DNA of 58,367 bases, from assembly GCF_001429045.1 (NCBI RefSeq), contig NZ_LMHY01000007.1:54750-113116 (forward strand), read 5' to 3'. This DNA is from Pseudomonas sp. Root71 (GTDB taxonomy: Bacteria > Pseudomonadota > Gammaproteobacteria > Pseudomonadales > Pseudomonadaceae). Shown in pieces: positions 52,868 to 56,660 of the stretch (position 1 is its first letter; each line of letters begins with the position of its first letter). Both the position numbers and the translations under genes were made by a program. Under the pieces are notes generated by a model. That model saw only the letters and a list, made by a program, of their open reading frames with translations, did not search any database and was not told where the DNA came from.

Positions 52868-53212
52868 TCAGAGCCTCCCCTGCCGTCGGATGTGTGAGAG
52901 TTTTTCGATCGCTATAGGAAAACTCACCATACGCACCAGCCGAAAACCGGCCAGTTTCTCCCAGCGTAATTTTTGATCCACCTCTTTCTGAAAGATCCGA
53001 CACACAACGACTACAAAACCTGGAAAGCGGCGCCCGGATATACCGGGAATCCGAATATATAAGTATCCACTTTCGTTTATCGCCCCCCACGCAAGCCCCT
53101 GCCTCTCTGCATTCAACTCTTGAAATGCGGCGACATCTATTGGAAAACAAATAACAAACCAAAATTGATGTGTACATATTTCATCGGCGCCGACAGCCAA
53201 GAACTGCAACAT
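52868..53212 (-). CDS. Possible small protein divergent from the RiPP operon
   Basis: An open frame of 114 residues if it starts at ATG 53212, or 137 if at ATG 53281. The text reads like protein, with mixed hydrophobic strands (RFPGFVVVVCRIF, GYLYIRIPGISG) and a charged end (KLRWEKLAGFRLVRMVSF). I know no family. Neither start has a good ribosome-binding site, and the longer form would overlap the promoter of the peptide gene. It could be an immunity or regulatory protein of the island, or spurious. A second long frame on the same strand (to 52797) runs through the nuo terminator and was rejected. Confidence 0.35.
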   Translation of the reverse strand: MLQFLAVGADEICTHQFWFVICFPIDVAAFQELNAERQGLAWGAINESGYLYIRIPGISGRRFPGFVVVVCRIFQKEVDQKLRWEKLAGFRLVRMVSFPIAIEKLSHIRRQGRL

Positions 53213-53222
53213 CTGCACACTT

Positions 53223-53250
53223 TTGACCCAAATACCCCTTTGATTATAGA
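53223..53250 (+). promoter_or_regulatory. Promoter of the RiPP operon
   Basis: TTGACC (53223-53228), 16-base spacer, TATAGA (53245-53250), giving a start near 53257 and a leader of about 48 bases before the peptide gene. The best sigma-70 match seen in the window. Confidence 0.6.
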
Positions 53251-53258
53251 TTCGACTC

Positions 53259-53274
53259 GTGCTGAAAACAGCAC
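53259..53274. promoter_or_regulatory. Palindrome at the RiPP transcription start
   Basis: GTGCTG-AAAA-CAGCAC is perfect and begins nine bases after the minus-10 box. It is either an operator for a repressor or a 5' hairpin protecting the message. No regulator gene is present beside it. Confidence 0.5.
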
Positions 53275-53304
53275 ACTCCATTTCTAATCAAAGGAAACTT
53301 CCCA

Positions 53305-53445
53305 ATGGGTTATATGGTCAGCGGCTGGAATGCCAACAAAATCACGGATATCGAGCAACAGGAAACACCTACGCCTGAGCAGATCGAAGCATTGCAATTG
53401 ACCGAAGCTGAATTGGCGGAACTTGTAGAACAAGACGTCGAGTAA
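53305..53445 (+). CDS. Putative RiPP precursor peptide (46 residues)
   Basis: A 46-residue peptide starting MGYMVSGWNANKITDIEQQ and ending in an acidic, helix-prone stretch (TPEQIEALQLTEAELAELVE, then QDVE). AAGGA lies nine bases before the ATG. LTEAELAELVE resembles the recognition helices of RiPP leaders, but it is at the C terminus with only four residues after it, so a normal leader-core order leaves no core. The uncharged N-terminal part (Gly, Tyr, Met, Val, Ser, Trp, Asn) is the better core candidate. It has no Cys; one Ser (6) and four Thr (14, 21, 23, 33). The next gene is a YcaO enzyme. Too short for usual gene finding, so probably unannotated. The peptide role is inferred from position, size and composition. 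Confidence 0.75.
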   Translation: MGYMVSGWNANKITDIEQQETPTPEQIEALQLTEAELAELVEQDVE

Positions 53446-53451
53446 CAATAC

Positions 53452-53476
53452 GAACGGGGGACAGGTTCCCCCGTTC
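53452..53476 (+). promoter_or_regulatory. GC-rich hairpin between precursor and ycaO genes
   Basis: GAACGGGGG-ACAGGTT-CCCCCGTTC is a perfect 9-bp stem starting seven bases after the peptide stop and not followed by a U-run. It suits a stabiliser or partial attenuator that yields more peptide mRNA than enzyme mRNA. Confidence 0.65.
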
Positions 53477-53491
53477 TCACGAGGAAAAACA

Positions 53492-54727
53492 ATGGACAGG
53501 ACAAGGATTGCCGAACGGGAACTGTCAGCGGACGAGGCACAAAAGCGCATTCTCGCCGAACTGCGCTTTTTGGGGCTCGAACCCAGCATCCGCACACTAG
53601 GACGTAAAGTTGTCTCGGTGTTGGCCAGTCTCGGTAGCAACACGCATGAACCGATCTGTGGCGCCGGCAAAGGCTATCCGGACCAGGCTCGGATCGGCGC
53701 ACTCTATGAAGCCCTCGAGCACTATTGGACGGAAGATCTGAGCGCTAAAGACATTCACTTTGCAACTGCGCAATACTTTACGGAAACAAAGCTTTTTAAC
53801 GATGACTCAGTACTGCAGCTTGTTTGCGACCAAAAAGACACCCGGATCGCTTGCCGAACTTATAAATGCCCCTTGCAAGACACTCACTTTCACTACCCGA
53901 TAGCACTGACTCTGCCAGGTTATCCAGAGCGGGCATTTGAACAGGACAATGCCAACTATTGTGCCCTGCGCCGATATTCAAGTAACAGTGGTACGGCGAT
54001 CGGAGCGAGTTACAACGAAGCATTACTCCATGCCACCAACGAATGCATTGAACGGGATGCCGTTTCTTTATTTTTGCTGAACCACTTTTATTATGAAAAT
54101 CATCCACCTCAGCGACGGGTTGCACGCCTGCGTCAAAGCGATATCCTCGGCCGTTTGTGGACCGATGCCGAAAGGGAGATTGGCGCAGAAATCGTGTTGC
54201 TGGAAATCAGCAATGAATTCCAGGCACGAACATTCCTGGCTTTCCCAGCAACGCCAGACACCCACATCAGCCTGTACGGTACGGGTTGTTCCCTTGACCC
54301 ACGGCATGGTGCCTGGCGTGCGCTGACCGAACTGGTACAACTGCATCACGCCGTGTCGCAGTCGCAGTCGCAATATCGGCAACACCTGATCAATGCACAG
54401 CGACATTTACAGCGCTTTCCCCGTCTGTTGCGCTGCTCGCAGTTCCATACCCCGTCGCTACTGTCTCCCCAACATAGCGTGGTGCTGCCCGACGCGTGGG
54501 ATGAACGACCATTGACCGAGCAAATCGACCAGTTGCTGCAAGACCTGCAACGTCACGGACGGACATTAGGTGTAACTACTCTTCATCAAACAGCTTTGGG
54601 CACCACACTGGTCAACGTAGTCATTCCCGGTCTGGAGCGCTTTTTCATTGTTTCCAGCGGCAATGTTGTTATCCCCCAGTCCCGGGGTCGACGCCTGGAA
54701 AAAAACCGGCAGGCGACATGCGCATGA
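53492..54727 (+). CDS. Stand-alone YcaO-family cyclodehydratase
   Basis: A 411-residue YcaO enzyme, which uses ATP to activate a backbone amide of a precursor peptide (azoline, thioamide or macroamidine formation). ATP/Mg motifs are in order: GKGYPDQARIGALYEALEHY (59-78), GTAIGASYNEALLHATNECI then ERD (167-189), GTGCSLDPRHGAWRALTELV (263-282) and VVIPGLERF (376-384). The C terminus ends RRLEKNRQATCA, lacking the PxPxP tail of azoline-type YcaOs. No E1-like/ocin-ThiF partner, dehydrogenase or TfuA gene is near, so it acts alone or with an unlinked partner. Ribosome-binding site GAGGAAAAAC. Stop overlaps the methyltransferase start. Confidence 0.88.
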   Translation: MDRTRIAERELSADEAQKRILAELRFLGLEPSIRTLGRKVVSVLASLGSNTHEPICGAGKGYPDQARIGALYEALEHYWTEDLSAKDIHFATAQYFTETKLFNDDSVLQLVCDQKDTRIACRTYKCPLQDTHFHYPIALTLPGYPERAFEQDNANYCALRRYSSNSGTAIGASYNEALLHATNECIERDAVSLFLLNHFYYENHPPQRRVARLRQSDILGRLWTDAEREIGAEIVLLEISNEFQARTFLAFPATPDTHISLYGTGCSLDPRHGAWRALTELVQLHHAVSQSQSQYRQHLINAQRHLQRFPRLLRCSQFHTPSLLSPQHSVVLPDAWDERPLTEQIDQLLQDLQRHGRTLGVTTLHQTALGTTLVNVVIPGLERFFIVSSGNVVIPQSRGRRLEKNRQATCA

Positions 54728-55683
54728 ATACTCCAACGGTGGTTACTCCCGACCGAGAGGTGGCATTGGCTCAAGGCCTGGCCAGGCACGTCATCCAATC
54801 CGGTACCATGGGTTGCTACGTCGAGCCTGCGGGCGCCAGCCTGAATCATCTATTTTTTCTACGAGTGAAAGGTCGTGACTGGGTTGGCCGAAAGACCCTG
54901 CAACGTGACGCACACCAGCGGTTGCACCTGAGCAGTGTGCTCACCCCTTTCATGTTGCTTGGGCCTCTCGTCCAGTGGCAGTGGAGTAACGAAGGTGTAT
55001 CAATTTACTTTCGAACAGCGACCCTGGCTGAAAAAACCAAGGCCTTCGACACCGCACTGGCGCTATCTGATAGCGAGGTTAACTTCCCGTTTCCGTTATG
55101 TGACGACTCGAATCAGGAAGCGGTCTGTCCTGACGAGTTCTGGCAGTGCAACGAGGTCCTCGCCACACAACTGAACGCAGACGAAGCGCATTTTCGCGAC
55201 CATTGCGTCCAACTGCTCAAGACAATGCCAATGAAGGGGCAAGTAATTTACGACCCGGCCTGCTCCACCGGCGAGTTCATATCCCATCTGGCCCGGGAAC
55301 TCACCGACTATCGCTTTCTGGCATCCGATCGCTCGGCCTCGATGATTGCGTATGCAAAAAACCGCCACGTGACATCGCCAGTCGAATTTCGCCTGCTCGA
55401 CTCCAGCGACGCCGCCATTTGCGGCATTCAATGCGACGTCCTTATCCTTCGATTTCTTAATGCCGAAGTTCTGACCCGCAGCGACGCTCACACCGCTTTC
55501 CGCTCCCTGGTGCACTGCGTAAAGCCCGGCGGCAACCTCCTGATCTTCGGTCATACCCCTGTTCTGATTCCTGTACCCTGGCTGGCCCAGCAGTACCACC
55601 TGCATTTGTTGTCCAGCGTGGCGGCACGCTCCGGCCAGACAGAACTGTTCCAGTTCTATCGTTTGCTGGTCCCGACTTCATGA
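54718..55683 (+). CDS. Class I SAM-dependent methyltransferase of the RiPP cluster
   Basis: A 321-residue protein. The C-terminal half is a Rossmann methyltransferase: motif I VIYDPACSTGEFISHLA (177-193), acidic end of strand 2 at Asp204 (ASDRS), and post-motif VKPGGNLLIFG (268-278). The first 140 residues (VIQSGTMGCYVEPAGASLNH, VGRKTLQRDAHQRLHLSSVL) are no methyltransferase part I know and may bind the peptide. Start at 54718 or, with a classic ATGA overlap, at 54724. Likely methylates the modified peptide; the atom is unknown. Confidence 0.82.
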   Translation: MRMNTPTVVTPDREVALAQGLARHVIQSGTMGCYVEPAGASLNHLFFLRVKGRDWVGRKTLQRDAHQRLHLSSVLTPFMLLGPLVQWQWSNEGVSIYFRTATLAEKTKAFDTALALSDSEVNFPFPLCDDSNQEAVCPDEFWQCNEVLATQLNADEAHFRDHCVQLLKTMPMKGQVIYDPACSTGEFISHLARELTDYRFLASDRSASMIAYAKNRHVTSPVEFRLLDSSDAAICGIQCDVLILRFLNAEVLTRSDAHTAFRSLVHCVKPGGNLLIFGHTPVLIPVPWLAQQYHLHLLSSVAARSGQTELFQFYRLLVPTS

Positions 55684-56558
55684 CCGGCACTCTCCAAACA
55701 AACGGATACTACCCAACCGGCGACGGCCATCAACTGTATTGGGAGCGTCACGGAACACCGGGAGCCGAACCGGTATTTTTCCTCCACGGCGGCCCAGGCG
55801 GTCGCTGCCGGCATGAACACCTTGAGTTTTTCGACCTGGAGTGCTTCGACGTCGTTCTCTTCGATCAACGCGGGTGTGGACGCTCCCTCCCCCATGGCGA
55901 GCTCCGCGATAACACCTGCGGACTGTCAGTAGAAGACATCGATGGGTTACGTCAGCATCTGGACTTCGAAAAAATCAGTCTGCTGGGGGTTTCCTGGGGC
56001 AGCTGGCTGGCAATTCAGTACCAGCAGCGCTATCGCGACACCCTGCTGAAAACCACACTGGTCTCGGTTTTCGTGCCTTTCGCCGATAATGTCAGTGCCT
56101 ACGAACAAATGCTTAACCACGGACTGTCGACACTCACTGGCTGCCATGCAAGCCATTCCCTACGCGACATCTTCCGGATACTCTGCGAGGGCTGTCCGCT
56201 ACAGCAGCGCCACGCGGCCATTCAATGGTTACAAGCCCTTTTGCAACAGACAGGACAATCCATTGGCCGGAACACCCTTGAGGATTTCGTCGACGACGAA
56301 GCCATTCGCGCCATACGCCTGGAGCTGCATTACCACATGCAGCAATACTGCTTCACACCAGCCAACGAAGAGTTGACCCTGGATAGAAACACTTTGCTGA
56401 TGCAGGGAGTCAGGGACGCCTTCGGCATGGCCAGTGTGCGCTGGCTACGACAGCGTTTGAATCTTGATTGCCGACTGCTGTATGCCGGGCACAACGCGTT
56501 CGCCCCCCCCATGCTCAAGGCTGTGCGATATGCGCTCAAGCGTGTTGCCCGAGACTGA
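55680..56558 (+). CDS. Alpha/beta hydrolase, prolyl-iminopeptidase-like
   Basis: A 292-residue alpha/beta hydrolase close to proline iminopeptidases. Oxyanion motif HGGPGG (36-41), DQRGCGRS (62-69), nucleophile Ser105 in GVSWG, Asp246 in QGVRDAF and His271 in AGHNAF form a full triad. It is about 20-25 residues shorter than usual proline iminopeptidases, mostly in the cap. ATGA overlap with the methyltransferase gene ties it to the cluster, so it may trim the modified peptide. The bottromycin epimerase BotH has the same fold but without a working triad, so this is more likely a true peptidase. Confidence 0.85.
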   Translation: MTGTLQTNGYYPTGDGHQLYWERHGTPGAEPVFFLHGGPGGRCRHEHLEFFDLECFDVVLFDQRGCGRSLPHGELRDNTCGLSVEDIDGLRQHLDFEKISLLGVSWGSWLAIQYQQRYRDTLLKTTLVSVFVPFADNVSAYEQMLNHGLSTLTGCHASHSLRDIFRILCEGCPLQQRHAAIQWLQALLQQTGQSIGRNTLEDFVDDEAIRAIRLELHYHMQQYCFTPANEELTLDRNTLLMQGVRDAFGMASVRWLRQRLNLDCRLLYAGHNAFAPPMLKAVRYALKRVARD

Positions 56559-56594
56559 ATCAGCGGTAGCCGAACAGTCTGCCCGGAGGACTCG

Positions 56595-56624
56595 ATCTCT
56601 TGAGCTTTGTCTGGATCAAGAGAT
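56595..56624. repeat. Inverted repeat after the peptidase gene
   Basis: ATCTCTTGA-GCTTTGTCTGGA-TCAAGAGAT, a perfect 9-bp stem directly before the terminator. Function unknown; may add to transcript-end stability. Confidence 0.55.
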
Positions 56625-56630
56625 ACCACC

Positions 56631-56660
56631 AAAAGACGGCACCTTCGGGTGCCGTTTTTG
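56631..56660 (+). terminator. Terminator of the RiPP operon
   Basis: ACGGCACC-TTCG-GGTGCCGT followed by TTTTG. The core is identical to the nuo terminator at 52821-52846. The following stretch to 56853 has no gene; a promoter for oprD is expected but not clearly visible. Confidence 0.82.

Follow-up and report, generated by a model that had tools for sequence, protein, structure and literature searches.

At the end of contig NZ_LMHY01000007.1 of Pseudomonas sp. Root71 (assembly GCF_001429045.1), a compact operon joins a 46-residue peptide to a stand-alone YcaO enzyme, a homologue of isonocardicin synthase and a hydrolase. Positions refer to the window, that is, the whole stretch of 58,367 nucleotides analysed, which ends where the contig ends. 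The operon is confirmed as real and recurring. It is likely, from comparison of its genes, to encode a new variant of the ribosomally synthesized and post-translationally modified peptides (RiPPs), of the follower type, with a lone YcaO and a nocardicin-type transferase for the 3-amino-3-carboxypropyl (ACP) group of S-adenosylmethionine (SAM). In the model that unites these elements, to which we give a probability of about one half, the lone YcaO would form an N-terminal amidine, ACP would be placed on Tyr3 and the hydrolase would trim, leaving a small modified ribosomal peptide. A preliminary description of this DNA had already outlined a small modified peptide made with a lone YcaO, and this outline is retained; its third step is replaced, an ACP transferase taking the place of a methyltransferase. 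No account of the operon was found in the open-access literature, while subscription journals could still hold one.

The predicted precursor gene and the recurrence of the operon

Four genes on the + strand occupy positions 53305-56558, in exactly the frames first assigned to them:

53305..53445, + strand: predicted RiPP precursor, 46 aa, with a putative N-terminal core MGYMVSGW, a NAN motif and an acidic C-terminal follower
53492..54727, + strand: stand-alone YcaO (PF02624, Pfam E 2.1e-34), 411 aa, predicted ATP-dependent enzyme modifying backbone amides
54718..55683, + strand: isonocardicin synthase (Nat) homologue, 321 aa, predicted SAM:Tyr 3-amino-3-carboxypropyl transferase (PDB profile and fold match)
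55680..56558, + strand: proline-iminopeptidase-like alpha/beta hydrolase, 292 aa, predicted to trim the product (profile match to 1azw)

The YcaO gene overlaps the third gene by 10 nt, the third gene overlaps the hydrolase gene by 4 nt, and a gap of 46 nt separates the peptide from the YcaO. As expected of a RiPP locus, a small conserved precursor gene is co-located with genes for tailoring enzymes. The proposal of a compact operon of RiPP type, built around a lone YcaO, is borne out by these frames and by the recurring gene order, and no exporter was seen among the operon genes, as stated earlier.

Twenty-seven distinct loci were compared: 22 sampled clusters, L088 (genome G092), L089 (genome G074) and the named contigs L034, L035 and L036. 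Loci L031-L033, duplicates of L067, L068 and L079, were not counted. They yield 25 distinct orthologous peptides, whose median dN/dS (ratio of non-synonymous to synonymous substitution rates, Nei-Gojobori) is 0.20 over the 256 usable of 351 pairs, with none above 1. The peptide is under purifying selection; its frame is conserved together with the YcaO gene instead of decaying beside it, and the early claim of a genuine, conserved peptide gene stands. The orthologues, the dN/dS value and the recurring gene order rule out a chance frame. Used as queries against 5.8 billion proteins, 14 of the peptides found 70 homologues, for which all named organisms are Pseudomonas and the source names read ‘hypothetical protein’, except for one oxidoreductase-subunit label.

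Conservation is concentrated at the two ends of the peptide. Met1 and Tyr3 occur in 25/25 distinct peptides, Gly2 in 24/25 and the final Asn of NAN in 23/25, and the acidic C-terminal half retains L-Q-L-T-x-x-E-x-A-E-L. The stretch from Tyr3 to NAN varies in both the identity and the number of its residues. Because this variable stretch lies between MGY and NAN, ahead of a conserved C-terminal half, the arrangement points to a core at the N-terminus and a follower behind it, similar to bottromycin, and modification most likely falls on the N-terminal part (MGY...). Tyr3 is the sole invariant phenol (additional Tyr residues occur in two precursors) and Cys is absent from every precursor. Bottromycin had been named as the best-known case of a YcaO without partner; with the lone YcaO found and the putative core and follower suggested by conservation, it is the nearest layout. 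A conserved follower behind an N-terminal core is the bottromycin layout in the excerpted text of PMC7136475.

The third gene is present in 24 of the 27 loci, and all 24 also carry the YcaO and the MGY peptide; a joint recurrence had been suggested as a check, and for these three genes it is observed. Among 398 genomes of the same genus, the third gene was found in 22 (E<=3e-60); the YcaO subfamily occurs in 23 genomes (E<=9e-82) of a second sample of 398, chosen by the same rule. The YcaO accompanies the third gene in all 22, and among the 23 with the YcaO one, G092, lacks the third gene; Fisher's p for this coupling presupposes identical genomes in the two samples and takes no account of relatedness. 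A search with the YcaO gave six named relatives, all Pseudomonas. Within the genus, related YcaO genes are not rare, 53/398 genomes matching at E<=0.001 (a few as fragments or within long frames).

Other lone-YcaO loci provide a contrast. Of 28 such loci (27 from the same genus and one from another family), 26 have an MG-starting peptide upstream of the YcaO, and none was found at L021 and L137. These 26 peptides are of the form MG-x-x-R-[ST]-E-[IV] (22) or MG-[KM]-x-CCMYINEF (4), and Tyr3 occurs in none. The third gene is missing from 26 of the 27 same-genus contrast genomes, the exception being G348, which carries an MGY cluster (L084).

A distant copy of the system is found on plasmids. The third protein matches three of 72,556 plasmid records, two from Pantoea and one from Acinetobacter, with 27.6% identity over 93% of its length; against the family profile the plasmid protein scores 1e-47, and isonocardicin synthase is its sole PDB match at E<=0.001. 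In each of the three, the gene is preceded by a YcaO 31% identical to that of the window, and the peptide, MGYLNSGISNSNSENANKAVLTIEEEEVLASASQADEESQSED, keeps MGY and NANK and differs in the remainder. Only one base differs over 3.4 kb (L179 versus the other two), so that the three loci count as one case. The coupling of enzymes and peptide is supported by this copy, since it again pairs the third enzyme, the YcaO and an MGY peptide. Beyond these plasmids, full-length forms were seen only in the genome of origin, both for the third gene outside the genus (phylum sample of 398, up to five candidates scored per genome, a search weak for distant forms) and, beyond SAM-domain matches, for the Pantoea third protein (class sample of 369). 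The third protein has no match in IMG/VR contigs; homologous proteins exist in Streptomyces, Nitratireductor and Paraburkholderia.

Predicted chemistry of the YcaO and of the third enzyme

The YcaO protein consists of a single YcaO domain (Pfam), and solved YcaOs are matched by profile and by fold. The fold matches of its predicted model (predicted local distance difference test, pLDDT, 85.1; predicted template-modelling score, pTM, 0.88) include LynD, two archaeal YcaOs, E. coli YcaO, MusD, TruD and McbD. The residues that we take to form the ATP site (K60, E73, E76, S164, E176, N183, E184, E187, E280 and Q283) are identical in 15/17 YcaOs, the exceptions being L087 (E184Q) and L088 (E187G). 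As the preliminary description had noted, the YcaO is without partner: no E1-like, ThiF-like/Ocin-ThiF-like or TfuA protein is encoded among the operon genes. The operon, with its single-domain YcaO and three other genes only, is thus set apart from the thiazole/oxazole-modified microcins, defined by an E1-like or Ocin-ThiF-like partner and by Cys, Ser or Thr in the core, and from the thioamitides, defined by TfuA beside YcaO. Since Cys is absent throughout and 4/25 distinct precursors are devoid of Cys, Ser and Thr within residues 1-13, the product common to all is unlikely to be an azoline. An N-terminal amidine is our best guess: without Met1 the first two residues are the near-invariant Gly and Tyr, and in streptamidine a six-membered amidine involves residues 1 and 2 (PMC8442711, excerpt). 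In the excerpted texts of PMC7136475 and PMC4603692, the bottromycin YcaOs work without partners and one of them closes the N-terminal macroamidine.

The strongest competitor of the amidine, itself unlikely, is the formation of an oxazoline (or thioamide) within the core by the YcaO, with the ACP step unchanged. Ser occupies the sixth alignment column in 17/25 distinct precursors, including the peptide of the window (Ser6), and azolines are the commonest YcaO products in the excerpt of PMC8442711. Against it stand the four precursors just mentioned, which are accompanied by intact YcaOs, and the missing E1-like, ThiF-like and TfuA genes.

The third protein is the element that most clearly departs from the preliminary description, which had read it as a methyltransferase. 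A profile of its family (15 members) searched against the PDB has isonocardicin synthase (8zhu) as its top match, with E 1.6e-47 and a span of profile positions 42-316 of 319; the second-best PDB protein reaches 1e-8 and is confined to the SAM domain. Homology thus extends over nearly the full length, N-terminal region included. The AlphaFold2 model (pLDDT 86.7, pTM 0.86) gives the same picture: the four best fold matches are all isonocardicin synthase chains (TM score 0.73-0.77 by query, 0.82-0.85 by target), and the remaining 46 listed reach at most 0.43. The SAM motif D-x-A-C-S-T-G is common to the family, to isonocardicin synthase and to 9/9 distant homologues read. Methyltransferases usually carry D-x-G-C-G-T-G (one example is among the PDB profile matches). 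Because sequence, fold and SAM motif all match isonocardicin synthase, the third enzyme is predicted to transfer ACP, and probably not methyl.

Isonocardicin synthase acts on the phenol of its substrate, which the title of structure 8zhv gives as nocardicin G. As the target of that enzyme is a phenol and Tyr3 is present in 25/25 precursors, Tyr3 is the likely acceptor. The excerpted review PMC10491745 describes isonocardicin synthase as not homologous to NAS, CntL and MccD.

A plain SAM methyltransferase that caps or esterifies the peptide, as first proposed, ranks next among the alternatives and is doubtful. The domains assigned by Pfam to the third protein are methyltransferase domains only, and most of its 95 database homologues bear methyltransferase names, six carrying the source name isonocardicin synthase. 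An ordinary methyltransferase is nevertheless rejected as the best reading: no other match in sequence or fold comes close to isonocardicin synthase, and its unusual SAM motif is shared throughout the family.

Proposed pathway, difficulties and known systems

In the proposed pathway, the hairpin between the peptide and YcaO genes would likely hold the precursor above the level of the enzymes. Met1, followed by Gly, would be removed by the general methionine aminopeptidase, and the acidic C-terminal half would serve as the follower to which the enzymes bind. With ATP, the YcaO would activate a backbone amide for attack by the free Gly amine, giving an amidine at the N-terminal Gly-Tyr, and the isonocardicin synthase homologue would move ACP from SAM to the Tyr3 hydroxyl. 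A cut near NAN would release the product, to be trimmed by the hydrolase. The model predicts mass shifts of +101 Da (ACP) and -18 Da (dehydration), and a signal, a metal ligand or an antibacterial are candidate roles of the product.

The hydrolase step is the least certain. The assignment as prolyl-iminopeptidase-like, made in the preliminary description, agrees with the profile match to proline iminopeptidase 1azw (E 7.4e-46) and with a Ser/Asp/His triad and a Glu (S105, D246, H271 and E215) identical in 14/14 hydrolases. In the alignment, E215 falls on the Glu of IENHYF, a motif that reads LELHYH here; in the proline iminopeptidase family this Glu binds the N-terminus of the substrate. The protein scores below the NCBIfam equivalog cut-off TIGR01249 (134.2 versus 259.75 bits). 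Its gene adjoins 17/22 sampled clusters, where the recurrence suggested earlier extends to it (with a position upstream of the peptide in L085), and is not adjacent in the other five: in G106 an orthologue is on another contig, in G196 a remnant of 50 residues is left, and in G047, G107 and G332 only general matches to the N-terminal half of the hydrolase were found.

Several observations weigh against the pathway. Beside these five clusters, no hydrolase is annotated within 6 kb on the Pantoea plasmid. A peptidase that requires a free N-terminus and an amidine that consumes it can be reconciled only by a peptidase that acts earlier or elsewhere. Most precursors have Ser or Thr in the core, where an oxazoline could form. 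A direct search confirmed that G092 lacks the third gene; its locus (L088) has a truncated or short peptide in addition to the E187G substitution. L034 keeps peptide and YcaO in a genome without a full-length third gene, and there the precursor extends to 54 aa and the hairpin is missing. L089 contains a YcaO fragment, and the third gene of L082 has a TGA within the matched span.

Two further explanations give the operon another function. The YcaO could work as an ATP-dependent peptidase, separating core and follower without forming a ring, in the manner described for MusD (7u58, entitled as a YcaO with ATP-dependent peptidase activity). MusD is among the sequence and fold matches and no other follower protease is evident; since it is one of several equal matches, and rings or thioamides are the products of most known YcaOs, this reading is improbable. 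That the small frame is a leader or regulatory peptide and the enzymes use another substrate is very improbable: the product of the operon is not known, which leaves room for it, but the dN/dS of 0.20, the conserved ends around a variable stretch, the MG-starting peptides at 26/28 other lone-YcaO loci and the recurrence of the pair on distant plasmids, where MGY and NANK are retained, all argue for a substrate.

Among known systems, bottromycin shares with the operon a YcaO without partner, a predicted N-terminal core with a C-terminal follower and an N-terminal amine as the likely nucleophile. Its precursor also begins with Met-Gly, and its cluster likewise has an alpha/beta hydrolase. The operon differs by its single YcaO instead of two, its unrelated core and its ACP transferase homologue. 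Of the radical-SAM C-methyltransferases, P450, amidohydrolase and transporter in the defining list for bottromycin (PMC7136475, excerpt), none is encoded in the operon. Isonocardicin synthase of the nocardicin pathway shares sequence and fold at near-full length, the D-x-A-C-S-T-G motif and a phenol in the substrate, whereas its substrate is a beta-lactam; the substrate predicted here is a ribosomal peptide, and the enzyme is linked to a YcaO. Streptamidine and klebsazolicin have a six-membered N-terminal amidine involving residues 1 and 2, as predicted here, but use leader peptides and YcaO partner proteins, neither of which was found in the operon. Microcin C is a ribosomal peptide with SAM-derived ACP, as predicted here, and carries an aminopropyl group through MccD/MccE; ACP is however placed on a phosphate, no YcaO is involved and MccD lacks homology to isonocardicin synthase (PMC10491745, excerpt). 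Finally, proline iminopeptidase shares the fold family, the triad and the motif Glu with the operon hydrolase, which is shorter and divergent in the cap region.

If the model is true, tyrosine O-aminocarboxypropylation would join the RiPP modifications, through an enzyme family so far named for a beta-lactam pathway. It would also offer a minimal system for partnerless YcaO action and for follower guidance of N-terminal chemistry, in a cassette of three to four genes present in easily handled bacteria. On the Pantoea plasmid, a gene for a FeeM-like N-acyl amino acid synthase (L179 8109-8897; PF21926, E 2.8e-26) lies 222 nt after the YcaO-ACP transferase pair. A wider and more tentative possibility is a new RiPP class, in which a tiny peptide would carry an O-homoseryl ether on tyrosine and a Gly-Tyr amidine made by a lone YcaO, and hence an additional amino-acid head; in the plasmid form, the FeeM-like enzyme would acylate this head, giving a peptide-borne relative of the acyl-homoserine signals.

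Regulatory elements and neighbouring observations

The following elements surround the genes:

53172..53182, + strand: conserved upstream box, GTACATATTTC, with consensus GTACGTATTTC (22 upstream regions aligned)
53223..53252, + strand: likely sigma-70-type promoter, TTGACC, 18 nt, TAGATT (scan match and 22 aligned loci)
53259..53274, + strand: inverted repeat GTGCT / AGCAC just 3' of the -10 box, perhaps an operator or a hairpin of the 5' leader (conserved in the 22 aligned upstream regions)
53452..53476, + strand: hairpin of 10 pairs between precursor and YcaO, unlisted in the preliminary description (folding and covariation)
56636..56660, + strand: likely intrinsic terminator, ACGGCACC TTCG GGTGCCGT TTTTG (sequence and overlapping scan matches)

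The alignment excludes L084, L085, L087 and L088 (too distant) and L086 (without sequence). The single promoter claimed earlier is not supported by the scan alone, the site at 53223 being no better than chance (1 found versus 2.7 expected in shuffles); it is supported by conservation, the -35/-10 arrangement being recognizable in 20/22 aligned regions (L082 and L083 deviate). The box and the inverted repeat, which flank the promoter, suggest a specific regulator. The terminator noted earlier is present as a hairpin followed by TTTTT at about 56636-56660.

The compact hairpin between peptide and YcaO occurs in 22 of the 26 loci folded (L088 was left out); longer repeats replace it in L080 and L081, and none is found in L034 and L089. 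In 19 of the 22 hairpin loci (without L075, L078 and L079), 8/9 pairs are changed on both sides, and 0/500 shuffles reached the covariation score. Hairpins of this intercistronic kind may hold the precursor transcript in excess. In L080 and L081 the long inverted repeats have extended the gap to 145-154 nt and are perhaps insertions of the repetitive extragenic palindromic (REP) type.

The upstream neighbour of the operon in the window, nuoN, lies within the fetched stretch of 13/27 loci. A gene for a PqqU/YncD-like TonB receptor stands beside four divergent clusters (L085, L086, L087 and L088), and genomes of the genus often carry orthologues without having the cluster. The receptor was rejected as a part of the cluster: of 35 other same-genus genomes searched, 23 have a receptor with 63-76% identity to the one in L088, none of the 23 with the YcaO subfamily of the window.

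Two more lone-YcaO families with MG-starting peptides exist in the genus, so that the theme may be general. One comprises 22 same-genus loci (L012-L020, L128-L136, L138, L139, L142 and L143) with the peptide MG-x-x-R-[ST]-E-[IV]; an ABC transporter gene comes next in L012 and on a Vibrio plasmid (L183 4830-7621), where the peptide starts MGKKRSEINS. The other (L010, L011, L140 and L141) has the peptide MG-[KM]-x-CCMYINEF, and in L011 a gene for a pyridoxal-phosphate enzyme of Cys/Met metabolism follows. In Nonomuraea (L182 5622-7110), a frame of 38 aa just upstream of a YcaO frame, MGNVVDYVSVASLDRWSQHLTEAELARLEELTAGDGEE, has an end similar to the putative follower of the window. On a Streptomyces plasmid (L181 5743-8932), a YcaO has an MG-starting peptide of 53 aa upstream and a SagB-type dehydrogenase downstream.

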